A stretch of 64,000 nt of DNA from an uncultured Pirellulaceae bacterium. Its GTDB lineage: Bacteria; Planctomycetota; Planctomycetia; Pirellulales; Pirellulaceae. The stretch spans positions 124,001 through 188,000 of the forward strand of contig CALFUT010000031.1 in assembly GCA_937929805.1 (NCBI GenBank), in the 5' to 3' direction. This document shows, in pieces, positions 6,221-29,454 of the stretch. Numbering within the stretch: the stretch's first letter is position 1; every line of letters begins with the position of its first letter. The notes beneath the pieces are model-generated. The model was not told where the DNA came from. It worked only from the letters and a program-made list of their open reading frames with translations, and did not search any database. The position numbers and the translations under genes were made by a program.

Positions 6221-7453
6221 GTGACAGACTCCGACAATCCGACCTTCCATCGCACTCCGTTGGTATTGCTGATCGTTACTGCGCTCGCTGCGGTCATTTT
6301 CTATGTGGCTCGATCGACAATGGGCTGGTGGAGTGATCTCGGCTTCATCATCAGCCTTGCCACCGCGATCTCGATCGTGATCTCCGAAGCCTGCGATCCA
6401 TTTTCCGATGCGGCTCAATGGGTCGGGCACCGGTTGCAACTGCCGGGCTCCGTTCGCGGCGCAACGCTGGACGCGATCGCCAGCAGTATGCCAGAACTTT
6501 TCACTGGTTTGTTCTTCGTCACGGTGGCGTTAGCTGGTGACATGAGCGACGCCGATCGCCTGACCGCAGGATCCGAAGGGTACGGCTCAACCATCGCCAC
6601 GTGTGCCGGAAGTTCCATTTACAACCTGATCCTGATCCCCGCTTTGTGCGCGATCATGGTTTCTTATAAGCGTCCCGATCGACCCACCATTTTGATTGAG
6701 TCCGATGTGTTGTATCGCGATGGAGCTTGGACGTTCTGTGTTCAAGCCGGCCTGCTGGTGTTTCTTTGCCAGCGTGAGCTAACGTGGCACATGGGCGTGG
6801 CGGCCATCGTTGCGTACTTCGCTTACGTCGTGCACCTGTACATTTCGACGCGGCGGTTTCAGTCCAAAATCGCCAGTGGGCAACAAATTCAGGACGAATC
6901 CGAAGATTCAGCCAGCGTTTTCTTCGGGCGATTCGATGTCCAACTGCAATGGCCATCCGCGATCACAATTCTGGTTATCGCTACCACCATCGCGGCGACG
7001 TCCTGCTACTTCTTGGTTGAGCTAACCAATTTTTCCGCCCATCGAATGGGCGTGCCGCCATTTTTTGTCGCGGTCATTCTGACGGCCGCCGTGTCTTCGG
7101 TTCCCGACACCTTTTTATCTTTGAATTCTGCAAGGCGAGGCGACGACAGCGGCGCGGTGTCGAACGTTTTTGGGTCGAACATTTTCGATGTGTGCATCGG
7201 CATGTCGATTCCGCTGTTGGTGTATTGCTACTTGAATGACTGGCAACCGGTGCAACTGATTGGACCAGACGAGAGCACGATGGCCGGAGTCGTGGGCTTG
7301 CGAGTTTTCCTGTTTGCGTTGACCTCGGTCTCGCTGGGCATCATGTGGCGTCGCAGGGAGGTATCACGAACATCCGGCTGGATTCTCTGCGGCCTATACG
7401 GACTGTTCACCGCCTACGCCGTGCTGGGCGGGCTCGGCATTATCGCGGTTTAG
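6221..7453 (+). CDS. Sodium/calcium exchanger family membrane antiporter
   Basis: A 410-residue protein with about ten membrane segments, starting at GTG 6221. The two inverted alpha repeats that form the ion path in the Ca2+/cation antiporter superfamily are visible. The first is RGATLDAIASSMPELFTGLF, near residues 79-98, with a later GSSIYNLILIPALCAI. The second is ILTAAVSSVPDTFLSLNSAR followed by SNVFGSNIFDVCIGMSIPLL. A hydrophilic linker with acidic residues (QDESEDSA) separates the halves. The family exchanges Na+ or H+ for Ca2+ or K+ across the cytoplasmic membrane. The ion specificity here cannot be read from the sequence. It follows truA by 50 bp on the same strand. Confidence 0.85.
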   Translation: MTDSDNPTFHRTPLVLLIVTALAAVIFYVARSTMGWWSDLGFIISLATAISIVISEACDPFSDAAQWVGHRLQLPGSVRGATLDAIASSMPELFTGLFFVTVALAGDMSDADRLTAGSEGYGSTIATCAGSSIYNLILIPALCAIMVSYKRPDRPTILIESDVLYRDGAWTFCVQAGLLVFLCQRELTWHMGVAAIVAYFAYVVHLYISTRRFQSKIASGQQIQDESEDSASVFFGRFDVQLQWPSAITILVIATTIAATSCYFLVELTNFSAHRMGVPPFFVAVILTAAVSSVPDTFLSLNSARRGDDSGAVSNVFGSNIFDVCIGMSIPLLVYCYLNDWQPVQLIGPDESTMAGVVGLRVFLFALTSVSLGIMWRRREVSRTSGWILCGLYGLFTAYAVLGGLGIIAV

Positions 7454-7842
7454 GCTTTAGAAATTGGACGCAAACGCAGGCAAGGTTTTAGCAACCGTCT
7501 CTTTCTCCTGCTGCTTTTTCAACGTTCAACGATAAGCCAGCAGGCGACGGTGTTTTTTCACACCGCGCCAACGCCTGCCGGCTAGTCGTTAAACAGGAAG
7601 AAAGGCTAACGGATCGGTTTTCCGAGACCCGCGCGACCACTCAGTGACAGCATGTGATGCAGTCACCTTCCGTGGAGGCAATCGACACGGCTCGGGCCGC
7701 TGTTTGTGGCACCAAACTCACCCTCACAGTCTTTTTTGATCGCACGGGTTTGGTCAGACGAACCGCTTTGATCTTGCCCAGCGCTCACGGCCTCAAGTAC
7801 CCTCCGCCACCGAAATCATTTTGCCCGCCGGTGACGGACCCC
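7454..7842. other. Intergenic gap carrying a palindromic element
   Basis: This stretch of 389 bases separates the exchanger gene from the coiled-coil gene. It holds the 63-bp imperfect palindrome described separately at 7528-7590. The frame of the downstream gene is open back to 7654, but no good ribosome site supports an earlier start, so I treat it as noncoding. I see no RNA gene. Confidence 0.6.
7528..7590. repeat. 63-bp imperfect palindrome with a nested hairpin
   Basis: The arms 7528-7546 (AACGATAAGCCAGCAGGCG) and 7572-7590 are inverted copies matching at 16 of 19 positions. Between them is a second perfect stem, CGGTGT/ACACCG, with a TTTTTC loop (7548-7565). A nested symmetric structure in an intergenic gap resembles REP or MITE-type elements; it could also act as a transcript-end hairpin for the exchanger gene. 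No second copy was found in this window. Confidence 0.75.
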
Positions 7843-9774
7843 ATGAAGCCCCTCCCGTATTTTGCTTTGCTAATATTCCTCGCCGCCTTGGCGAGCCTTA
7901 CCGACAGCGCTTGCGCCCAAGAACCGATCCACGGCAGTGTGAAACGGGGTGGTCTGACCGACGGCCTGATCAGCCGGACTCAATTACGGTCTTTGATCAA
8001 CCGAGCCCCCAACCACGACAACCCGCTGCGCCAACCCGCGCCGCCAAGAGCGCAACCAAATCTTCTTCCAACACCAACGCCGCCACTGACGCCGCCGCAA
8101 AGGATTCACGATCCGCAAGTCGCCCCCATGACTTGGCAGCAGGAAGTGACTGCGGAAGAGCGTGCTGAAGCGGACGACGTTGATTCCAATTCCGATTTCC
8201 AACCTGCCGAAACGTCCAAAGAGGCGGCAGCGCCGTTCATGGGACCGCTTCCCAGCCCTGACCTAGAGAGCCAACGGGAGACCATGGGCATGTTGGTCGA
8301 CTTCTCTATCGAGCAACTGGTTTTGGAAATCGGTCATCGTCGCAGCAGACTGGATGCCTCACTTGGAATCGACGACCAGCTGAAAAATGTTCGCTTGAAG
8401 CATCTTGAATCGGCTGAATTGGCTTCTCAAAAAGCGACGCAATATATTTCCCAGCGAAATTCTCTGCAAAACCAAATCGCCAACTTCGACAAGGAACTGG
8501 ATCGGCTTCGAAAGCAAACGCGGACGGTACTTGAGCCACCAGAAACAGACGCGAACATCTCTACCGATCAGCTGCAGATTCAACTACGAAATCTACAGGC
8601 CGAACTGGATCATGAAAAAACAGGCCTGAGAAAAGTTCAGGATCGGATCGGACAACGTGACAAGCGAATGTCAGTGATTCCAGCAGAACGACTCAAAAGC
8701 CGCAACCAAGTGAATGACTTTCACGAGCAATTGTTGAAAAAGCAGGTCTCGGGCACCAGCGAGATCGAAGAGCTGCTTTCGATCCGTGCCCAAGAGTTGT
8801 TATCAAGCACGAAAGTCCAGCTTCTGGACGACGAAGCACATTGGCATGATCTTTCCCGCGAGAAACTGCCGTTGCAAAAATCAATCCATCAGCGAAACAT
8901 CCAGAGGCTCGAAAAAATCATTAACGATTGGAATCATCAAATTGCCGAGCGCAAACAGAGCGAACTGGAACTTCAGATTCAGATGGCTCGCCAGGCTGCC
9001 TTCGAAACCCACCCAGCTTTGAGAGAATTTTCTCTGGAGACATCACGACTGGCCCAGAGTCGAGTCGACCTAGCCGAGGTTAGCCGACAGTTACAAAATG
9101 AAAAACTAAACATTGAAAAGCAACAGCATGGCATTCAGCAACAGCTGCAAGATTTGGAAAAGCACGAAGAAGCTTTTAAAAATGGCGGCGATTCGGAAAG
9201 CAATCAAACGCTGATCGAAGCCCATCGAAAGTTGATCCTCCCCTGGGAAACCATGGCTCGGATCGGCCAGCTAAAACGAGAGCTTTTGCTTAACCGGGGC
9301 ACCAAGCTCGCCTTGCGTGAGCAGCTTGACGAAGTCGCCGACCCTCAACAGTTCATCCGGCAGCGTCTCAGCATTACTCACGATGAACCCGTTGCCAATA
9401 CAACGCTGATCGCCATGGCGGAGGAGTCAATCGATAACCACCGGCAGCAACTACTGGCTTTGGTGGGAGAACACGAAAAAGTTCACAGCCTGATCAATGA
9501 CATCAAATCCCGCCGCGAGGAAACGCTAAAGAACATCGAATCGACACGAAAACTGATCGACGCCTACGCACTGTGGGTGCGAGACGCGGCGCCAGTCAAC
9601 GTTGACTTGCTGAACGAATCACGTCTTGGTGCTGCCGAGTTTTTTGCGACGGACCAATGGAAGAAGCTAGGACGATCGGTGGTTGCCAACGTTGAACAAC
9701 GTCCATGGAGACCGACGGTCGGGTTGCTGGGTCTGCTGACCACGTTCGCCATTGGCAGGAGATTCAAGGGCTAA
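7843..9774 (+). CDS. Exported coiled-coil protein, MscK-like periplasmic domain
   Basis: The ATG at 7843 gives 643 residues beginning with a clear signal peptide (LPYFALLIFLAALASLTDSA, cleavage near CAQ). A Pro-rich linker (about residues 50-95) is followed by roughly 450 residues of charged, Leu/Gln/Glu-rich heptad-like sequence, typical of coiled coil. A short hydrophobic segment (VGLLGLLTTFAIG) sits at the very end. In MscK/KefA-type channels a large coiled-coil periplasmic domain precedes the membrane part within one polypeptide. Here the corresponding piece is a separate gene, whose stop lies one base before the start of the MscS-domain gene. It probably forms the extracytoplasmic part of that channel. 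A frameshift that splits one original gene cannot be excluded from a single sequence. Confidence 0.75.
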   Translation: MKPLPYFALLIFLAALASLTDSACAQEPIHGSVKRGGLTDGLISRTQLRSLINRAPNHDNPLRQPAPPRAQPNLLPTPTPPLTPPQRIHDPQVAPMTWQQEVTAEERAEADDVDSNSDFQPAETSKEAAAPFMGPLPSPDLESQRETMGMLVDFSIEQLVLEIGHRRSRLDASLGIDDQLKNVRLKHLESAELASQKATQYISQRNSLQNQIANFDKELDRLRKQTRTVLEPPETDANISTDQLQIQLRNLQAELDHEKTGLRKVQDRIGQRDKRMSVIPAERLKSRNQVNDFHEQLLKKQVSGTSEIEELLSIRAQELLSSTKVQLLDDEAHWHDLSREKLPLQKSIHQRNIQRLEKIINDWNHQIAERKQSELELQIQMARQAAFETHPALREFSLETSRLAQSRVDLAEVSRQLQNEKLNIEKQQHGIQQQLQDLEKHEEAFKNGGDSESNQTLIEAHRKLILPWETMARIGQLKRELLLNRGTKLALREQLDEVADPQQFIRQRLSITHDEPVANTTLIAMAEESIDNHRQQLLALVGEHEKVHSLINDIKSRREETLKNIESTRKLIDAYALWVRDAAPVNVDLLNESRLGAAEFFATDQWKKLGRSVVANVEQRPWRPTVGLLGLLTTFAIGRRFKG

Positions 9775-9775
9775 C

Positions 9776-11617
9776 ATGGAAGTGTCAAACTCAGATCATC
9801 GTCTTGCCGAAGACATTCGCTGCCATTCACGATTTGGCCCGACCCTCGGGGCGACAGTCCACAGCATCTGCAACGCTGTTCTGCTACCGCTGTTGTTGCT
9901 GATCGTGGCGTGGCAATTGGCACCCGCTTGGGAACTGATGACGCTTGAGGGAAGCGTGCACCATGCCATCGTGGGAATCGTACCGAGCCTGTTTCTTTCA
10001 ATGCTGATGCTGTATGCCTTCCGGTCAGGCGGACTGGCACCGCGAAACTTTGGCTGGTCAAGCTCACTCTGTTCCGGGATTTGCAACGGAGTCCGTTGCT
10101 TTGTCTGGCTGGCTTTGCCTTTAAAATTCCTCTGCGACTCGCTGGAAACATTCCAAAACGGAGCGTGGCAAAACTCGCTGGGCCGATTAATCTTCGTGGC
10201 CATGCTGATGACGATTGCCGTTGCCATTCATCTTGCCACCCGTGGCATCAATCAGTGGCGGGACTCGTTGTTGGCCGCCAATGGACTATCGCACACTCGC
10301 GTCCAACGGCGGAAACACCGCGAAAACCTTCTCAATGGTGGCCCGATCGATGTCAGCATGCTGGGCGGGCATTCGCTGATGGCTTCGCTGCGCAGGTTTG
10401 TGTTATTGATCGTCACGATGGTGCCCATGGTGTTCGCAGGTCTGTCGATCGCCGGTTACCACTACACGGCTCTTCAGATGACACGCCGAGCCATGTTGAC
10501 TGTGCTGCTGGCGGGCGTCATCGCGTTGGTCGCTGGACTGGTTAGCCGAATGCTGCTGGTGGCTCAGTTCCGCGTCAAACTCCACCAGCTGAAACGAAAT
10601 GAAACAGGGCACATTGGCGAAAACGAATCGATCAACATTTCCGAGATCTCCACGCAAGTCAATCAACTGTTACGAGCCACTGCGTTGGTGGCGGTGCTGG
10701 TTACAGGCTGGCACATTTGGTCGGAAGTTTCGCCAACCATTCGCTTTCTGGAAGGCTTCACGCTCTTTGAGAAAAAAGGGCCTGACGGTGAAGTGATCTC
10801 AGTGACGACAGCCAGCCACTTGCTGATGGGCTTGGCCACGCTGTGCATCACTTGGGTTCTTAGTCGCAACCTGCCGGGATTGTTGGAATTGACTCTGATC
10901 GATCGCCTGCCATTGGACAAAGGAGGCCGCTATGCGATCTCGTTTGTGTTCCGCTATCTAGTGGGACTGTTGGGAATCGTCCTCGCCTGCAAAGTGCTCG
11001 GCTTTTCTTGGAACAGTGTTCAGTGGCTCGCGGGAGCACTTGCCTTGGGTCTTGGATTCGGCTTGCAAGAGATATTCGCGAATTTGATCTCGGGGATCAT
11101 CATCTTGATCGAGCGCCCGGTGCGAGTGGGCGATTTTGTTTCCATCAACGGCATCACTGGACACGTTTCACAAATGCAGCTGCGAGCCACCACCATTCGT
11201 GACCTCGACATGCGTGAGCTGATCATTCCCAACAAAAAATTCATCACCGACGACGTAATGAACTGGACCCTAAGCGATCAGATGGCTCGAATGATCATGA
11301 CCATCGGCGTGGCATACGAATCAGATACGGAACTTGTGCAAGACACGCTGCTATCGATTGCCAAACAGCATCCGTTGGTTCTTAATATTCCGGCTCCCGA
11401 GGTCGTGTTCAGTAAGTTCGGTGATTCAACCCTCGATTTTGAACTCCGGGTGATCGTGCCCAAACGAGACTTGTTTGCCAAGGTCAAGCACGAACTCAAC
11501 ATGGCGATCAACAAGGCATTCCGTGAAAAACAAATCGAAATCGCCTTCCCTCAACGCGAGATTCGGGTCAAATCTGATGCGGCGGCTGTTGGCCTAGCGA
11601 CTCGCAAAGCGGCATAG
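9776..11617 (+). CDS. Mechanosensitive ion channel (MscS domain, MscK-like)
   Basis: The ATG at 9776 gives 613 residues; the frame itself is open from 9752, overlapping the preceding gene. Around ten hydrophobic segments precede the MscS core. The pore helix and beta domain are clear: WLAGALALGLGFGLQEIFAN, then GIIILIERPVRVGDFV, and the later beta-domain block RDLDMRELIIPNKKFI. MscS-family channels open under membrane tension to release solutes on hypo-osmotic shock. The extra N-terminal membrane segments place it in the large MscK/YbdG-type group. It is probably co-translated with the exported coiled-coil gene one base upstream. Together the two products (643 + 613 residues) have about the size of one MscK protein. 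Confidence 0.9.
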   Translation: MEVSNSDHRLAEDIRCHSRFGPTLGATVHSICNAVLLPLLLLIVAWQLAPAWELMTLEGSVHHAIVGIVPSLFLSMLMLYAFRSGGLAPRNFGWSSSLCSGICNGVRCFVWLALPLKFLCDSLETFQNGAWQNSLGRLIFVAMLMTIAVAIHLATRGINQWRDSLLAANGLSHTRVQRRKHRENLLNGGPIDVSMLGGHSLMASLRRFVLLIVTMVPMVFAGLSIAGYHYTALQMTRRAMLTVLLAGVIALVAGLVSRMLLVAQFRVKLHQLKRNETGHIGENESINISEISTQVNQLLRATALVAVLVTGWHIWSEVSPTIRFLEGFTLFEKKGPDGEVISVTTASHLLMGLATLCITWVLSRNLPGLLELTLIDRLPLDKGGRYAISFVFRYLVGLLGIVLACKVLGFSWNSVQWLAGALALGLGFGLQEIFANLISGIIILIERPVRVGDFVSINGITGHVSQMQLRATTIRDLDMRELIIPNKKFITDDVMNWTLSDQMARMIMTIGVAYESDTELVQDTLLSIAKQHPLVLNIPAPEVVFSKFGDSTLDFELRVIVPKRDLFAKVKHELNMAINKAFREKQIEIAFPQREIRVKSDAAAVGLATRKAA

Positions 11618-22173: not shown

Positions 22174-22899
22174 TTACCTCCGCCGCCGCATCAGCAGCCC
22201 TGCACCTGCGATTGAAAACAGAACCGAGGGGCACGGCTCGGGAATCGTAGCCGTTTCAAACTCTGGACGTAGAAAGCGAACTGGTGTCACTTCAGCTGGC
22301 ACACCAAATGCGTTAGATACCAAACTGAACCCGGTCGGCGTAGTTCGATAGTACTGCACTAGCGCGAGTTCAATCGCAAATCGTTCTTCTGGTGAACGCT
22401 GAGCGAGTTCTGCAAAAAAATTCTCGGGGTCGGACGTATCAATGGTCAGCAACGGCGAATTTAGAACAAGTAGTCCTTCAATCGGCAGGGCGTCGTAAAT
22501 TGGGCCCACATTAAAAACCCCTGTCGGCAGTGAGGGCGGAACTGTAGACGGGGATGTCCAGCCAAGACCATCTGGGGATTCGTCGAAGAAGGACGCGCCG
22601 GGAATCGCATCTTCTCTTAACGCATCTCGGTCAATCGCATCAAACGAAGCCCGCAGATTCACGCTCACATCATCGTTTTCGAGGACGGTTGGAACACCAA
22701 AAACCAAAATTCCAATTTCTTCTCCGATGCTTAAAAGGACGTCGCCAGTAAGCGGATCGTAGTACGCGTCAACCGTCCCAGCGTCGGCCGCGGGGATCTC
22801 ATCGCGCGAAAAGTAGTCCACATCCGTTTGAGCAAAACCGTCGGACGTCGGCCAGACAAGCAAAAATAAAACTAGCAGAACATAAATCTGATAACGCAT
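22174..22899 (-). CDS. Exported protein with PEP-CTERM-like sorting tail
   Basis: ATG at 22899, after GGAGAGATGAG, gives 241 residues with a signal peptide (YQIYVLLVLFLLVWPTSDGF). The mature part is acidic and beta-rich, with no recognised enzyme motif. The last 23 residues follow the PEP-CTERM pattern: IPEP, then a hydrophobic stretch (SVLFSIAGAGLLM), then four Arg at the very C-terminus. Exosortases cut such tails and attach the protein to the cell surface or matrix. No exosortase gene is in the window, but the partial gene at the left edge resembles a protease associated with such systems. It is divergent from the ECF sigma factor gene, 352 bases away. Confidence 0.75.
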   Translation of the reverse strand: MRYQIYVLLVLFLLVWPTSDGFAQTDVDYFSRDEIPAADAGTVDAYYDPLTGDVLLSIGEEIGILVFGVPTVLENDDVSVNLRASFDAIDRDALREDAIPGASFFDESPDGLGWTSPSTVPPSLPTGVFNVGPIYDALPIEGLLVLNSPLLTIDTSDPENFFAELAQRSPEERFAIELALVQYYRTTPTGFSLVSNAFGVPAEVTPVRFLRPEFETATIPEPCPSVLFSIAGAGLLMRRRR

Positions 22900-23251
22900 C
22901 TCATCTCTCCATTTCTTGAAAGCATCAAACTCTTCGTCGACGCAGGTTTTGGCCCACTGCAACACGAGTCATCCTCTCACGCCAGCAACGAGATTGCAAG
23001 AAATTCATGGAGAATTTTTTGTAAACTGATTTGGCCGATCTCGACTCGCTCGTTGAGCCGCTCCGCTGCAACTCGTAGTTTGATCCGCTGGCCACCACCA
23101 ACTGTCCAGAGTTCCGACACGGGTGAAACTTTGGCAGTGACACCGGCTTGCCCCACGCGGGACACTGATTTCTCGCCTCCATGAACCTGATTTTTCCAGC
23201 AACTTGTGACTACAATGGTGCCCAGATCATTCTTTTTGCTTAGGGAAATTC
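22900..23251. promoter_or_regulatory. Divergent region upstream of the ECF sigma factor operon
   Basis: 352 bases separate the PEP-CTERM-like gene (minus) from the ECF sigma factor gene (plus). Promoters for both, including a possible self-regulated ECF promoter, should lie here. I could not identify one by eye with confidence. Short open frames on the minus strand here lack any family features. Confidence 0.4.
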
Positions 23252-23896
23252 ATGAAGCGCTCCAACGTTAAGCCTGTTGAAGTTGATTTGAGTGTGACTT
23301 CCACCGAACTACTTCGCCAAGCAAAAGCCAGTAGCCAAACCGCGTGGCAGCAACTGGTTGCACGGTATAGCCGGCGAATCTATCGCTGGTGTCGACGTGA
23401 CGGCCTGCAGCCAACGGATGCGGCAGACGTGACTCAGGAAGTACTACACGCGGTTGCTCGAAAACTGGGTGACTTTCATCGCGATCGACCCGGAGACACT
23501 TTTCGTGGCTGGCTGCGAAGGATTACGAACAACAAAGTTAATGACCATTACCGAAAACAAAACAAGACCGTCGACCGGGCATCGGGTGGCGTCAATCGCA
23601 TCGAGTTTTTGGCCGACGCGAGAGAATCACTTGGAACTTGGAATACCGTGTCGGTCGCATCTGACGTCTCTGCCGTGTCCTCCATTCAGGATCAGCGAGT
23701 TCAAGACGCGATCAAGCGCGTCCGAGGCAATATCAGCGAACGCGATTGGAAATTGTTTTGGCGAATCGCCGTCGACGGCCAATCCGCGGCGGATGCAGCA
23801 AAAGAACTCGGAATCACGTCCAACGCAGCTCGTTTGGTAAAGATGCGAGTCCTAAAACGATTGAGAAAACAGCTTGCTGACGGCATACATTCATAA
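23252..23896 (+). CDS. ECF-type sigma-70 family RNA polymerase sigma factor
   Basis: A 214-residue group 4 sigma factor that would redirect RNA polymerase to its own promoter set. Region 2 is clear: AWQQLVARYSRRIYRWCRRD, DAADVTQEVLHAVARKL and TFRGWLRRITNNKVNDHYRK (about residues 30-105). Region 4 (about residues 155-205) reads DWKLFWRIAVDGQSAADAAK followed by ELGITSNAARLVKMRVLKRL. The linker is long and Ser/Asp-rich, as in planctomycete ECF proteins paired with Ser/Thr kinases. The start is ATG 23252, with AGGGAAA upstream. The kinase gene follows after 17 bases, and no classical anti-sigma gene is present, so the kinase probably controls this factor. The target genes may include the operon itself. 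Confidence 0.93.
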   Translation: MKRSNVKPVEVDLSVTSTELLRQAKASSQTAWQQLVARYSRRIYRWCRRDGLQPTDAADVTQEVLHAVARKLGDFHRDRPGDTFRGWLRRITNNKVNDHYRKQNKTVDRASGGVNRIEFLADARESLGTWNTVSVASDVSAVSSIQDQRVQDAIKRVRGNISERDWKLFWRIAVDGQSAADAAKELGITSNAARLVKMRVLKRLRKQLADGIHS

Positions 23897-23913
23897 TCAG
23901 AAATTGCTCGCGG

Positions 23914-25845
23914 ATGAGAACTGACCAACCCAATACGGCCGACTTCTTGTCAGACTGCCCTTCTCGCGACGAAATTCAAGCATGGTTGGTTGGACGCTTC
24001 GCGGAACCGGTCGCCGCAAGACTTGAGCAACATTTCGAGCGTTGCTCTCAATGCGAAGACACTCTGGCAACGCTTGACTTCCCCAGTGACGAACTGATCG
24101 AGCGGCTATCCGAGTTGCCACCGCTTGATGAAGACGAAGTCGATTACCAAGTTTTGCGACAAAAACTATTGGCTACCCCCGTGTCGTTCCCAGACGACCA
24201 ACTGGCAGCATCCTTTCTTGAACAGGCTCAGCATTTGGCTGACCCGAAACTAGGCACACTCCCTTTTCAAATCGGCAACTACGAACTGACTGAATGCATT
24301 GGTCGCGGGGCTTCAGGAGCCGTCTACCGAGCTCAACATTTGAAGCTTGGAACAACGGTTGCCGTGAAAGTACTGGGAGCTTCACTGAAAAAAGATGCCC
24401 GCGAGATCGACCAATTTATTGCAGAAATGAGACTGATCGGATCGTTGGTTCACCCACACATTGTGCGAGCAACTGACGCGGGTGAAGTTGATGGATTGCA
24501 TTTTCTAGTAATGGATTACGTTGAAGGGATCGACGTCGCACAGCTTTTGTTCCGGTGCGAAAGATTGAGTGTTCCTGTTTGCTGCGAGATCGTTCGGCAG
24601 GCCGCCTTAGGATTAGAGTTCGCTCACTCAAAATCGTTGATCCATCGGGATATCAAGCCGTCAAATTTGTTAGTGACCGCTGCCGGGCACGTGAAGCTCT
24701 TGGACTTAGGCGTGGCGACTCGCGTCGCAATGCCCTCGACCGAACCCTCCACTGCCCCGGCAAACGCTGGAACGTTCAGCTACATGGCTCCCGAACAGCG
24801 ATCGGCATCATCAAAGATTGACCCCCGCGCCGACATTTACGGTCTCGGAAAGACATTTTTGAAACTGTTGACAGGAACCAGTGTCGCCCAAAATAACGTA
24901 GCGATAGACAAGTTCCGAAACGACATCCCTGATGAAGTAAAGTCGCTGATTGCAAAGATGTTGGCGACAGATCCTAAAGATCGCCCAGCAACAGCTGGCC
25001 AAGTCGCCGCAGCCTTGTTGCCCGTCGCCAATCATCGTGATCTAGTCGATGTCGTCGCCAAGTTGTTTCCGGATCATGATCGGCCAAGTACTGGCTTAGA
25101 CGAATTTCAAACGCCAGTTGATTCCGCGAAGACCGCCAATATCTCTCGGCGACTCTGGATCGTTGCCGCGGCCGGGCTCGCGATCGCGACAGTATCGGTC
25201 GCTCGGTGGTACCCCAAAGCGGGCATCAAGAAAGCTCGTTGGCGACCGTTGAAAGCCGCCGACTCCAAGTTGCTATTTCCTGTCAATAGTCGTTCCGCAT
25301 CGTTTAAAGTGCTGGACGACCAGCGGATTAAGATGCAATCCGCCGGAATTTCATTACTTGGATTAGGACAACCACTGCTGGGTACGTTTTCGTTGGATCT
25401 ATCGCTAGACCTTCAAGATTCCGGCGCCGCCGGGTTGTTCTTCCGAGGGCAACGTGTTGAACAGTCGCTTACTTTTCAAACTCTGGAGGTCGTCCACGAG
25501 CCGAACTCAATGGAAGTTAGTCCAAGATTGCGTTGGAGTCGCTGGAAGGCCAACCTGAGTGACAACCAGCCTCCAACGCGTGAAATACTGGCGACCGTTG
25601 CCATTGAGCGAGCGTCAAAACCTTCGCCATGCCAACTTCGAATCACTTTTGGTCAGCGAAGCATGCCTGAGGTTCGCTGGAACGACGCGCCGTTGCCGCA
25701 CGCAAAATGGGAAGTAACCGCTGCTGGCCAATCACTACAAGCAACACCTTTTGCTCAGCTGCCGACCATGTTCTTAGGCGACTTAGGGTTGATGACATTG
25801 GGTGGCAGTTGCGTATTTTTAAAACCTCGTTTGGCCTATCAATAG
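23914..25845 (+). CDS. Transmembrane Ser/Thr protein kinase with N-terminal HxxxCxxC motif
   Basis: A 643-residue kinase. The N-terminus holds His40-x3-Cys44-x2-Cys47 (HFERCSQC), the zinc-binding pattern of anti-sigma factors of the ZAS type. The kinase domain (about residues 122-385) is intact: [10 protein letters not shown] loop, Lys152 in [14 protein letters not shown] with Asp246, DLG with Asp264, and MAPEQR. One membrane segment (about residues 413-433) is followed by about 210 residues outside the membrane, with a beta-sandwich, lectin-like look ([20 protein letters not shown]). The cytoplasmic half therefore combines an anti-sigma-like module with a kinase and probably controls the sigma factor encoded 17 bases upstream. 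That link is inferred from layout. Confidence 0.88.
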
Positions 25846-25852
25846 GTGTTCA

Positions 25853-26806
25853 GTGCGGAACAATCGAACAAGCCGCCGACTTCGTGAACACTGCGCGACA
25901 CATGCGGGATTGACGCTGGTCGAATTGCTGGTTGTCGTGGCGATCATCGGTATTCTGGTTGCGATGACACTTCCTGCAATCCAACAAATTCGCGAGGCGG
26001 CCAGACTCGTTCAGTGCCAGAACAACTTGCATCAGTTAGCGTTGGCGTCGCTCAATTACAGTAGTGCTCACCACGACGACTTGCCGCCGCTTTGGAAAAC
26101 CGCAAACCCAAACCGATGGGATAATTTCTCTTGGCGGATCGATATTCTTCCTTTCATCGAGGCCGGCAACGTGGAGCCATTACTGGAACTAGACCAGCTA
26201 CCTCTGTCACCCGCCAATCTAACAGCTGCAGAAAGTCAGCTCCCTGTTTTTCAGTGTCCGTCGACGCCTCAATCACCTCGATCCATCGAGGCCATGGGCT
26301 CTTCATCTGCAAGCTACACGAACCTGAAAGTCGCTGCTTGCGATTATTACGCGATATTTGAATCGCGAGATAGCGGAAACCGCAGAGACCCGCCCTCCCC
26401 GGGTGCTTGGCACCCACCTAGCGACCCCGATTTTAGCACAACACCTGAGGCCAAGAGAACGCAAGCGGCGAACCTGAAGTCGATTCGTGATGGGCTGAGT
26501 TCCACGATTCTATTGTTTGAACAAGCTGCCAAACCGACTGAATACGATCAACAGCGTAACGTTCGAGTTCGCGATCATCTGTGGCACGCCGAAGGCCCTT
26601 GGGCAACGTCAGAGTTGGGCACAGTATTCGAATTCCAAGTCAATACATCGAACGTAGATGGCCTTTACGGATTTCATGTCGTAGCCAACATCGCGTTATG
26701 CGATGGTTCCGTGCATGGACTAGGCGCCGACATTGAACCGGCAGTCGTTGCTGCGTTGCTAACGCGAAATGGCAGAGAAATCATTGATGCGAGTGACTGG
26801 CAATAG
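25853..26806 (+). CDS. DUF1559 domain pseudopilin-like protein
   Basis: GTG 25853 lies seven bases after the kinase stop and gives 317 residues. Residues 19-40 carry a type IV prepilin cleavage site and helix: Gly19, then [18 protein letters not shown] with Glu at mature position 5. The helix is followed by [20 protein letters not shown], typical of DUF1559 (SBP_bac_10). The C-terminal half has [14 protein letters not shown] and a motif around [16 protein letters not shown]. Planctomycetes have very many DUF1559 proteins, presumably processed by a prepilin peptidase and anchored or assembled in the envelope. Their function is not established. Position in the ECF/kinase operon suggests it is controlled by, or feeds into, that pathway. 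Confidence 0.9.
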
Positions 26807-26914
26807 CTGGCCGAAACCTCGCGTTTAGCGACAAAAAAGGAATTTTGAAATGCCCATGCGTTAGGTAGCGTAGAACAAGTCCATTCTTCTCTTTAATAAA
26901 ATAGGCAATCCGTC

Positions 26915-28885
26915 ATGTTGCAGCATTATCTCGCCATAAATCAGGCATTTCGAGTATCTCCACCATCGTTCGTTACCCGCTTGGCATCCTTGGTCGGCAT
27001 TTTGACTTTGTTGATGTCACCTGTAACGGCTCAGGTCAACGGGCCCGGGCCTTCGCCAGCAAACCTCTTTGATACCGTGCTTGACCTTCCCGGCGACGAG
27101 GCAGTCATTACGGGTGTTAATTTTGAGAGCATCGGAGGAGTGGAGGGACAGACGGCTCAGCTCAACGTCAATGACGGCGGGCGAGTAGGTAGAAGCTTTG
27201 ATGCACTAGCCGGCGGCGAAGTAAACATCAGCGGCGGGGCCGTAGATTCTGGCCTCATTGCCAACGCTGGCAGCGAGGTAAACATCAGCGGAGGCGAAGT
27301 GGGTACTGTCTTCCAAGCCCGCGATGGCAGCGCGGTAAACATCACCGGCGGATTCATAGGTCACGGTTTTCAGGCCGGCGAAGGTAGCGCGGTAAACATA
27401 AGCGGTGGCTCTTGGGCGGGATCATTCAAAGCGTTGGAAGGCAGCGATGTCGAACTGGTCGGTGGCGAATTCAAACTCAACGGTGAAGCATTTACCGAAT
27501 CAACCATCACGATTGGGATCGATGATGTATTCACTGGGACGCTGGCGGATGGCTCTCCATTTATTTTCTCAAACTACTTTGGAATAGGAGATGCCTTGAG
27601 TGGTGTGAGGCTGACTCCGCCCTCCGTGCCATTGCTTGAGCCTAGTCTGCTCCCGCTGGTGGTTGCGACGCCCGTCGACAGTGGGCTGCGTGGCTTGCGC
27701 GCGGGGGAAAGCCTGACGGTATTGACTGGGGGTGAGTTATCCTCTGATTTTCAAGTCGTCGATGCTGCGTTACACGTCGACGGAGGCGAGGTTGGGCAAA
27801 ACCTTGAGGTAGCCTGCCGTGGCAGGGTGAACATCAGTGGCGGATCCGTAGCAAGCCTCAAGGCTTATGATGCCAGCGAGGTAAACATCACCGGAGGATC
27901 CTTGGGAAGACTTGGCGATGCTGGAATAGCAATCGACAGCATGGTTAACATCAGCGGAGGCACAGTTGGATCTTTTGACGTAACGGGCGGCAGCTTGAAC
28001 ATCAGCGGCGGCGATATTTTCAATCGCATTAGCATCAGGGGCAGCGAGGCAAATATCAGCGGAGGCTCATTGAATGGCATCACTGCCTTTGATGGTAGCG
28101 AAGTAAACTTCAGCGGCGGGGATATAACCTATAGTTTTAGTGCCCTCTCCGGCAGCGAAATGAACATCAGCAGCGGGAATTTTGGCGAAAATTTCGTTGC
28201 TGCGCCTGACAGCGTCGTGAATATCAGCGGGGGTGTTCTGAGCCAAACATTTCATGCCCGCTCCGGCAGCGTCGTTAACGTCCGTGGAAGATCGTTTTCG
28301 ATTGACGGTGCGCCTTTGGACAACTTGCAGCCAGACCAGCCTGTCACGATCACTGAACGGGATGTAACGCTCTCGGGAGTGCTGGCCGATGGAGAACCGT
28401 TCAGCTTCAACCTCAACTCAGGTCTTCAACGCGAAGATCTTTTCCGCGAAGATCTTTTCGAACAAGACGCGACAATTACCGTGACGCTTGTTTCACCGGT
28501 CATCCTAGGTGATGTCAATCAGGATGGCGTCGTGAACTGCGACGACGTTGACTCCTACCGTCCACTCTTGGATACTTCCGTAACCGTCGCAACGGCTGCC
28601 TTGGATCTGGATAGCAGCGGGACAATCGATCTTGTTGACGTAGAAAATCTCATCACGAACTTGGTGGTGACGCAGCCCAATGGCGTCACGGGAACTTTCT
28701 TAGGCGACCTGAACTGTGATGGCAAAGTCGACGTTCTTGACGATGCATTCACGCTCGTCAGCAATTTGAATTCCTCCGCCGGTAGTTACTCACAAGGTGA
28801 CATTAACTTTGACGGAAACGTCGACGTTCTTGGCGATGCATTCATCTTTATCAGCAACCTAGGACGGTCCAACACTAACCCGTAA
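26915..28885 (+). CDS. Secreted repeat protein with dockerin-like C-terminus
   Basis: ATG 26915 gives 656 residues with a signal peptide (LASLVGILTLLMSPVTAQ). Two blocks, about residues 75-200 and 270-450, consist of short repeats around GSEVNISGG at about 19-22 residue spacing, which suits a parallel beta-helix. Each block ends with a similar element (FKLNGEAFTESTITIG; FSIDGAPLDNLQPDQPVTIT). The last 125 residues hold dockerin-like calcium loops: GDVNQDGVVNCDDVDSY, GDLNCDGKVDVLDDAF and GDINFDGNVDVLGDAF. The end resembles the end of the giant protein at 45791. It starts 108 bases after the DUF1559 gene on the same strand and may be the main structural product of the operon. A surface or adhesive role is inferred. 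Confidence 0.82.
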   Translation: MLQHYLAINQAFRVSPPSFVTRLASLVGILTLLMSPVTAQVNGPGPSPANLFDTVLDLPGDEAVITGVNFESIGGVEGQTAQLNVNDGGRVGRSFDALAGGEVNISGGAVDSGLIANAGSEVNISGGEVGTVFQARDGSAVNITGGFIGHGFQAGEGSAVNISGGSWAGSFKALEGSDVELVGGEFKLNGEAFTESTITIGIDDVFTGTLADGSPFIFSNYFGIGDALSGVRLTPPSVPLLEPSLLPLVVATPVDSGLRGLRAGESLTVLTGGELSSDFQVVDAALHVDGGEVGQNLEVACRGRVNISGGSVASLKAYDASEVNITGGSLGRLGDAGIAIDSMVNISGGTVGSFDVTGGSLNISGGDIFNRISIRGSEANISGGSLNGITAFDGSEVNFSGGDITYSFSALSGSEMNISSGNFGENFVAAPDSVVNISGGVLSQTFHARSGSVVNVRGRSFSIDGAPLDNLQPDQPVTITERDVTLSGVLADGEPFSFNLNSGLQREDLFREDLFEQDATITVTLVSPVILGDVNQDGVVNCDDVDSYRPLLDTSVTVATAALDLDSSGTIDLVDVENLITNLVVTQPNGVTGTFLGDLNCDGKVDVLDDAFTLVSNLNSSAGSYSQGDINFDGNVDVLGDAFIFISNLGRSNTNP

Positions 28886-28938
28886 AATGCTTTGGATTTC
28901 AGCCAGGGTAAAAGATTCTCAGAAAACGATGCTCCGCA

Positions 28939-28974
28939 AACTGTTGTCAACGCACGCGTGCTATGACAACAGTT
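28939..28974. terminator. Strong hairpin at the convergence of two genes
   Basis: The perfect 11-bp arms AACTGTTGTCA (28939-28949) and TGACAACAGTT (28964-28974) enclose the palindrome GCACGCGTGC. The right arm codes for the last residues of the minus-strand gene that ends at 28961. It lies 54 bases after the stop of the plus-strand gene, so it can end transcripts from both sides. No clear T-tract follows. Confidence 0.65.
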
Positions 28975-29299
28975 CGTTTAGCTGTCCCACCGCGACTCGC
29001 AATGACTGAGCCGCCATCTGGAAGTTGGTGTGCGATGAGATCTCGGGCTGGATCTCGATGAATAGCTCCACCGCGTTGTTCAACTTCTTCAGCTTCTTCT
29101 TCGCTTGCTTCAGATACTTGGCGTAATCTTTGGATCTCAGCGGAGGCCCCAAGGCCAACATGTAGTCGTACAACGCTCGCGGCACCTCGCGAAGCTCGTC
29201 GTCTTCCTCCGCTTCCTCGCAATGCTTCAAAAACGCTCGAACCATCCAGACATGGCTGAGCAAATCATCGATCGCTAAGACTTTTTCTTCGTCAGTCAT
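28961..29299 (-). CDS. Small helical protein of unknown function
   Basis: A 112-residue, probably all-helical cytoplasmic protein with no signal peptide or membrane segment. It is strongly charged: an acidic stretch (HCEEAEEDDELREV, about residues 26-39) and a Lys-rich stretch (KYLKQAKKKLKKLNNAV, about residues 61-77). I recall closely similar short proteins in Rhodopirellula genomes, annotated only as hypothetical. No catalytic motif is seen. Its gene ends inside the hairpin at 28939 and runs towards the surface-protein gene. Confidence 0.65.
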   Translation of the reverse strand: MTDEEKVLAIDDLLSHVWMVRAFLKHCEEAEEDDELREVPRALYDYMLALGPPLRSKDYAKYLKQAKKKLKKLNNAVELFIEIQPEISSHTNFQMAAQSLRVAVGQLNELLS

Positions 29300-29454
29300 G
29301 GCTAGGTGTCACTTTACGATGCGATTGAACGAACGGACATTGTTGAACAGGAAGGACGAGGCATAGTTTCGAGCCGATTGAGGAAAATGCTTGTTGATTG
29401 GATTGGGTGCGGACGGAGCCTTACCCTCCCGTAAATCCGGTTTTGCAATTCCCA

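Follow-up and report, generated by a model that had tools for sequence, protein, structure and literature searches.

What brings genes for a sigma factor, a membrane kinase, a pilin-like protein and a secreted surface protein together in one run, and does the first of them control the last? The question is raised by positions 23252-28885 of a 64,000-nucleotide (nt) stretch of DNA from an uncultured Pirellulaceae bacterium (GenBank assembly GCA_937929805.1, contig CALFUT010000031.1, positions 124,001 to 188,000; "the window" below is this whole stretch, numbered from its first letter). A preliminary description of this DNA had proposed that the four genes form one operon: an external signal would pass through the kinase to free the extracytoplasmic function (ECF) sigma factor, which would then drive the pseudopilin-like and surface genes. 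Here we report that genes 1 to 3, coding for sigma factor, kinase and DUF1559 pseudopilin (hereafter the cassette), are a conserved signalling cassette, and that the sigma gene shares a nucleotide motif with the regions before surface-protein genes. On balance, the sequences lead us to lean toward an ECF/anti-sigma-kinase switch with a tiny adhesin regulon.

A conserved sigma factor-kinase-pseudopilin cassette

The positions of the open reading frames (ORFs) bear out the four plus-strand genes of the preliminary description, with gaps of 17, 7 and 108 nt and products of 214, 643, 317 (GTG start) and 656 amino acids (aa), respectively:

23252..23896, + strand: ECF sigma factor gene (sigma-2 at residues 35-105, sigma-4 at about residues 167-204)
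23914..25845, + strand: transmembrane Ser/Thr kinase that has an anti-sigma-like domain at the N-terminus and an external domain
25853..26806, + strand: DUF1559 pseudopilin-like protein of the cassette subfamily, with H-x8-DG, not H-x9-DG
26915..28885, + strand: secreted VNISGG-repeat surface protein with a dockerin-like tail; cargo, outside the wider cassette

The order sigma-kinase-DUF1559 is common to 10 genomes of two families, including the cultured Adhaeretor mobilis HG15A2 (G335, NZ_CP036263.1). Within the genus, an orthologous kinase is present in three of the 28 genomes examined: the window genome (G000), G012 and G014, the last an uncultured Pirellulaceae metagenome-assembled genome (CALDEW010000244.1); all three carry the four genes in order. 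When 241 genomes of the family were searched with the kinase external domain, six matches were found, and the three from other genera (G125, G126 and G134) again have sigma, kinase and DUF1559 in the same order, with no relative of the surface protein adjoining the cassette. A profile search of 396 genomes of the order gave 11 matches, made up of the own genome and G134, four strong matches in a second family (4/43 genomes of that family) and five weak ones; the strong matches (G286, G335, G388, G397) all show the three-gene order, and DUF1559 stands beside the kinase in none of the five weak ones (G063, G122, G192, G288, G414). The phylum sample (392 genomes) returned only the own genome and one weak match. 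Since the order and phylum searches scored seven candidates per genome, distant members of the cassette may have been missed. The unit is thus rare, with a patchy distribution.

The gene run is more than chance, because the homologues of its first three genes are arranged in the same way in nine other genomes. Sigma factor and kinase form a conserved unit, with the same adjacency in all 10 cassettes, and the pseudopilin belongs to it: DUF1559 follows 10/10 kinases with the cassette external domain and stands next to the kinase in 0/27 control pairs (30 other sigma-kinase pairs were fetched by sigma similarity, 27 of them with more than 1 kb downstream). Comparison of gene order across planctomycetes therefore upholds the preliminary description for three genes in 10 genomes, and for four genes only in the three of the same genus. 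The four-gene operon as a conserved unit was accordingly set aside: the fourth gene accompanies the others in those three genomes alone, is replaced elsewhere and has its own upstream motif (26846-26863; see below). As a separate observation, both genomes from one genus have, next to the cassette and divergent from it, a gene whose product has an FHA-like N-terminus, as judged by eye (L168, 7592-9436; L169, 2624-4486).

The window pseudopilin matches DUF1559 (PF07596) with 128.9 bits and N_methyl, the prepilin-type N-terminus, with 25.2 bits, both over the cut-off. Its own genome contains 25 DUF1559 matches, and large families have been reported from other planctomycetes; in the portions of the two papers available, DUF1559 is called a solute-binding family with 74 genes in R. 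baltica (PMC2754498), and 68 paralogs, two of them essential, are given for P. limnophila (PMC10632474). In a tree that also included 20 of the 24 other DUF1559 proteins from the window genome, plus two from relatives, the nine cassette pseudopilins (that of G125, cut by a contig end, was left out) form one clade with 100/99 support, the bootstrap being not fully settled. All nine carry H-x8-DG, found in none of the 22 others; against TIGR04294 (H-X9-DG), the window protein scores 14.9 bits, under the cut-off of 19.

The sigma factor and the anti-sigma-like kinase

The sigma factor is over the cut-off for Sigma70_r2 in Pfam (44.5 bits) and for TIGR02937 in NCBIfam (65 bits; cut-off 42.9), and under it for Sigma70_r4_2. 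The cassette sigmas form one clade (support 98/83), to which the sigma of locus L046 in genome G055 is sister. ECF43 sigmas lack the charges of the DAED motif in region 2.2 and have a Thr at that place. At the same positions the ten cassettes read DAAD (4), DAGN (3), DASN, DSSN and DAAN, that is, Asp comes first in 10/10, there is no Thr, and Ser occurs in 2/10; region 2.2 of the cassette sigmas does not fit an activation of the ECF43 type, which was therefore discarded.

The following features lie within the kinase gene:

23956..24054, + strand: zinc pattern C15-x24-H40-x3-C44-x2-C47 in the N-terminus
24280..24993, + strand: protein kinase domain (residues 123-360; Pkinase 153.5 bits)
25144..25203, + strand: twin-arginine SRR (residues 411-413) and a weakly hydrophobic membrane segment, resembling a twin-arginine translocation (Tat) signal
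25228..25842, + strand: external domain particular to the cassette (alignment of 10; no Pfam or PDB family)

The sequence HFERCSQC is indeed at residues 40-47, as first described, with H40, C44 and C47 in place; C15 is the likely fourth zinc ligand, and all four residues are invariant in 10/10 cassette kinases. Domains with the Hx3Cx2C pattern are established in anti-sigma factors, as far as the consulted part of PMC7406223 goes. The pattern of class I anti-sigma factors in a short helical domain was found in all ten kinases. A PDB profile search with the ten N-termini had DdvA, RslA, RsiW and ChrR (twice) as its five best matches (E 0.006-0.09), and zf-HC2 matched nine of ten members at E≤1 (best 2.4e-6; 0.12 for the window protein, under the cut-off). 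The AlphaFold model of the N-terminus (16 sequences) has a mean predicted local distance difference test (pLDDT) score of 66, with 75-84 in the core, and helices at 18-25, 31-43 and 45-53; four of its six Foldseek matches are anti-sigma factors, none significant. The N-terminus resembles zinc anti-sigma domains; the PDB matches are weak.

The zinc pattern is also present in 21/25 other ECF-paired kinases tested (including the G055 and G040 loci). Among the 26 of 29 kinase matches examined in the own genome, it was found in three of six that are ECF-paired (the window kinase, L289 and L303; L289 is also one of the 25) and in 0/20 unpaired ones. Because the pattern goes with pairing to this extent (21/25 against 0/20), the zinc domain accompanies sigma pairing in planctomycetes generally and is not special to this locus; the proposal that HFERCSQC is an anti-sigma zinc pattern gains from this comparison as well as from the five PDB matches.

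The kinase was also rightly called intact: the Pkinase score is over the cut-off and APE is present in the sequence. The external beta-rich domain that had been proposed is real sequence, but the window protein has no Pfam match, the PDB gave no sequence match and the AlphaFold model (two sequences) is poor, with a mean pLDDT of 44. Across the members only three scattered Pfam matches appeared, each in a single member. All ten cassette kinases have [STD]RR before the weakly hydrophobic segment (8/10 by script, two by sequence); among other kinases that have a membrane segment, the figure is 3/32. A Tat signal-anchor in the interior of a protein would be unusual.

A nucleotide motif at the sigma start and before surface-protein genes

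An alignment of the three same-genus genomes revealed a conserved block in the intergenic region before the surface gene, and the motif TGAA(AT/GC)GC-N5-CGTTA spans the sigma start codon in 9/10 cassettes; before surface-protein genes it stands at a distance of about 50-170 nt. In the window, these nucleotide features are:

23211..23216, + strand: TACAAT, a possible housekeeping -10 box of the sigma gene (from alignment; consensus match only)
23253..23270, + strand: motif copy 1, TGAAGCGCTCCAACGTTA, spanning the start codon of the sigma gene (exact pattern match)
26846..26863, + strand: motif copy 2, TGAAATGCCCATGCGTTA, lying 51 nt upstream of the surface gene and differing from the degenerate pattern at one position

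The aligned place of TACAAT reads TATAAT in G014 and G012.

Codon choice at the sigma start is accounted for by a constraint on the nucleotides and not by codon usage. The sixth sigma codon is GTT in 9/9, a codon that makes up 5-34% of the Val codons in the respective kinase genes (chance product 2e-7 if the lineages were independent, which they are not), and the Arg codon at the sigma start is CGC in 7/7. Sigma genes of other sigma-kinase pairs (39 genes) agree with the motif at 12-15 of 18 positions. As an observation apart, the L046 pair mentioned above (7407-10508) has TGAA-N9-CGTTA at its sigma start, no DUF1559, and a 146-aa protein after the kinase.

A first motif search (pattern TTGAAATGCCNNTRCGTTA, two mismatches, five genomes) gave 16 matches, as against 11 for the reversed control. 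When the ten cassette genomes (57 Mb by listed sizes) were searched with TGAARYGSNYYNNCGTTA, 19 exact matches were found, where about 3 to 5 are expected by chance (from pattern degeneracy and one-mismatch counts): 12 in cassettes, five elsewhere before surface-protein genes and two inside genes on the other strand, which look like chance. The five unlinked sites stand before a relative of the window surface protein (G014:C432), an FG-GAP/dockerin-like protein whose start is not settled (G012:C195), two orthologous SdrD-like repeat proteins that are 60% identical (G388:C238 and G397:C80) and a protein with a LESLEDRRLL-type N-terminus (G126:C1103). Positions 5-6 read either AT or GC at each of 21 sites, and TRR forms a third block at 26-28. 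Two further stretches were noted: AAATGC...CGTTAGC directly upstream of the exact motif on the minus strand at G126:C1103 (L255), and a one-mismatch copy in the window genome (L307, G000:C3:91248-91265) ahead of a signal-peptide start that lies within an ORF of 683 aa, either a further target or chance.

What stands beside the cassette varies. In other genomes unrelated secreted proteins replace the surface gene; the cargo of G335 and G286, secreted proteins homologous to each other (48% over 149 residues), is preceded by the motif at 67 and 55 nt, respectively. A motif-bearing gene of A. mobilis HG15A2 (G335) codes for a secreted protein of 287 aa. In G014 the pseudopilin is doubled; its first copy is broken into two ORFs, and a small secreted gene lies between the copies. 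Within this stretch (L061/L035, 4569-7091), the secreted gene codes for 139 aa, and a motif copy follows each pseudopilin. Of the claim that the sigma factor drives the surface genes, a link is supported: a DNA motif is shared by the sigma gene and the regions before surface-protein genes. The single four-gene operon through which this was to happen is given up.

The window surface protein scores 22.3 bits for Dockerin_1 (PF00404), just under the cut-off of 22.9, and is dockerin-like only. Its last approximately 130 residues (28493-28882) recur in at least 19 other places in the own genome (among the best 20 of 65 candidates); this dockerin-like tail is shared by many secreted proteins. On the other side of the cassette, a divergent gene at 22174-22965 codes for a secreted protein that ends with a PEP-CTERM-like segment and MRRRR; neither Pfam nor NCBIfam gave a match.

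Several readings of the motif as an element of another kind were also considered. Its core misfits GTTRRRY in several sites, and unlinked copies are found before surface genes; on these grounds, both an integron attC-type site and a flanking repeat of a mobile element were set aside from the sequence, while a repeat-mediated role might still apply. A simple hairpin is weak, as positions 5-6 are never the best-pairing mixed AC.

A proposed switch, its rivals and its relatives

In the switch that we favour, the N-terminal zinc domain of the kinase, similar to that of class I anti-sigma factors, would tether the ECF sigma factor to the membrane, and the external domain would read a stimulus, probably together with the co-encoded pseudopilin. 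The stimulus would alter the activity or conformation of the kinase, such that the sigma factor is freed or modified; once freed it may act, directly or via another factor, at TGAA(AT/GC)GC-N5-CGTTA-N7-TRR upstream of one to a few genes for surface proteins in each genome (in the window, the one at 26915), with possible feedback through the copy across its own start codon. The steps that we infer are the sequestration of the sigma factor, the sensing, the partnership of pseudopilin and external domain, and the identity of the motif-binding protein. A fuller version would be a self-contained surface-sensing switch: the kinase ectodomain would be exported by Tat and have the pseudopilin as its external partner, the kinase would itself be the anti-sigma factor, and a dual-purpose motif would encode the sigma start and serve as control site, with copies before one to a few adhesin genes per genome. 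We regard this version as possible, though less likely than not.

A number of findings weigh against this switch. A standard ECF promoter would have its two boxes about 16-18 bp apart, but 9 bp separate the most conserved blocks of the motif; nor can the sigma-gene copy serve as the promoter of the gene that it lies on. The sigma start of G126 has diverged to TTGA-N9-CGTTA, its spacing unchanged, and the motif copy that follows the G134 pseudopilin serves no clear gene. With up to one mismatch there are 119 matches compared with 162 for the reversed pattern, so that only exact matches are informative. Most relatives of the surface protein elsewhere are without the motif, which just 3/27 surface-protein-like ORFs of the fetched loci carry; a wider surface-protein regulon was dropped for this reason. 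As for the kinase, three ECF-paired kinases of the own genome are without the zinc pattern, and for the window protein itself PDB, Pfam and Foldseek give weak support to an anti-sigma fold. TGAARYG and TRR, 18 bp apart, could be the -35 and -10 boxes, but the strongest block, CGTTA, falls between them. The sigma-gene copy could act as an internal promoter that drives kinase and pseudopilin, as an operator or as a site of translational control.

In a different explanation, a separate DNA- or RNA-binding regulator binds the motif, or the motif works at the mRNA level (at the sigma start and in surface-gene leaders), and the targets of the sigma factor lie elsewhere. Conserved blocks too close for -35 and -10 boxes, and an overlap with the sigma start codon that suits an operator or translational site better than a promoter, speak for it, and bases 4-7 could pair with bases 14-17; however, the lack of a mixed AC at positions 5-6 in 21/21 sites argues against such a hairpin, no Rfam family was found in 22900-29400 up to E 1, and the cassette showed no third conserved gene for a regulator. 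We regard this explanation as possible and short of probable. It is unlikely, in our estimate, that the kinase instead phosphorylates and activates the sigma factor as in ECF43, with the zinc domain only a docking site. The kinase motifs are intact, and the part of PMC8999054 consulted proposes activation by phosphorylation for kinase-adjacent ECF groups, among them several from planctomycetes; yet the Thr of ECF43 is absent, the 2.2 motif of the cassettes having Asp first in all and Ser in two, and the anti-sigma-like zinc domain offers sequestration as another route. That an ordinary ECF-kinase pair came by chance to lie beside one of 25 DUF1559 genes and a secreted protein is highly improbable: both kinds of gene are common, but the same neighbour, in the same order and from one pseudopilin clade, recurs in 10 genomes and in 0/27 other pairs.

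Planctomycetes have many ECF-kinase pairs and large DUF1559 families, and the cassette ties one DUF1559 subfamily to one sigma-kinase pair. With a concrete regulon candidate, marked by a DNA motif and present in a cultured species, both the sigma-kinase mechanism and the role of DUF1559 become directly testable. The cassette may be a dedicated switch for surface adhesins. The portions of the literature available hold no description of the cassette, of a planctomycete ECF promoter motif, or of DUF1559 with a sigma factor or pilin; the cassette and the motif appear new. The pairing of ECF sigmas with kinases, in planctomycetes among others, is already known (PMC8999054; PMC8103513, as far as the sections consulted go).

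Like the planctomycete groups ECF59, ECF61, ECF62 and ECF217, which lie beside Ser/Thr kinases according to the consulted sections of PMC8999054, the cassette has an ECF sigma gene followed by a membrane Ser/Thr kinase; it differs by its fixed third DUF1559 gene and by an external domain and motif particular to it. With the ECF43 systems PknT/EcfP and PknS/EcfK it shares an ECF sigma factor and an adjacent transmembrane Ser/Thr kinase, and it departs from them in keeping an Asp-containing 2.2 motif with no conserved Ser or Thr. The kinase N-terminus is like the class I anti-sigma factors RsiW, RslA, ChrR and DdvA in its C/H-x(n)-H-x3-C-x2-C pattern within a short helical N-terminal domain, whereas the cassette kinase has a full kinase and an external domain fused to it. 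Finally, the cassette pseudopilin has the prepilin-type N-terminus and the DUF1559 domain, over the cut-off, of other planctomycete DUF1559 proteins, and is set apart from them by its own clade and by H-x8-DG.

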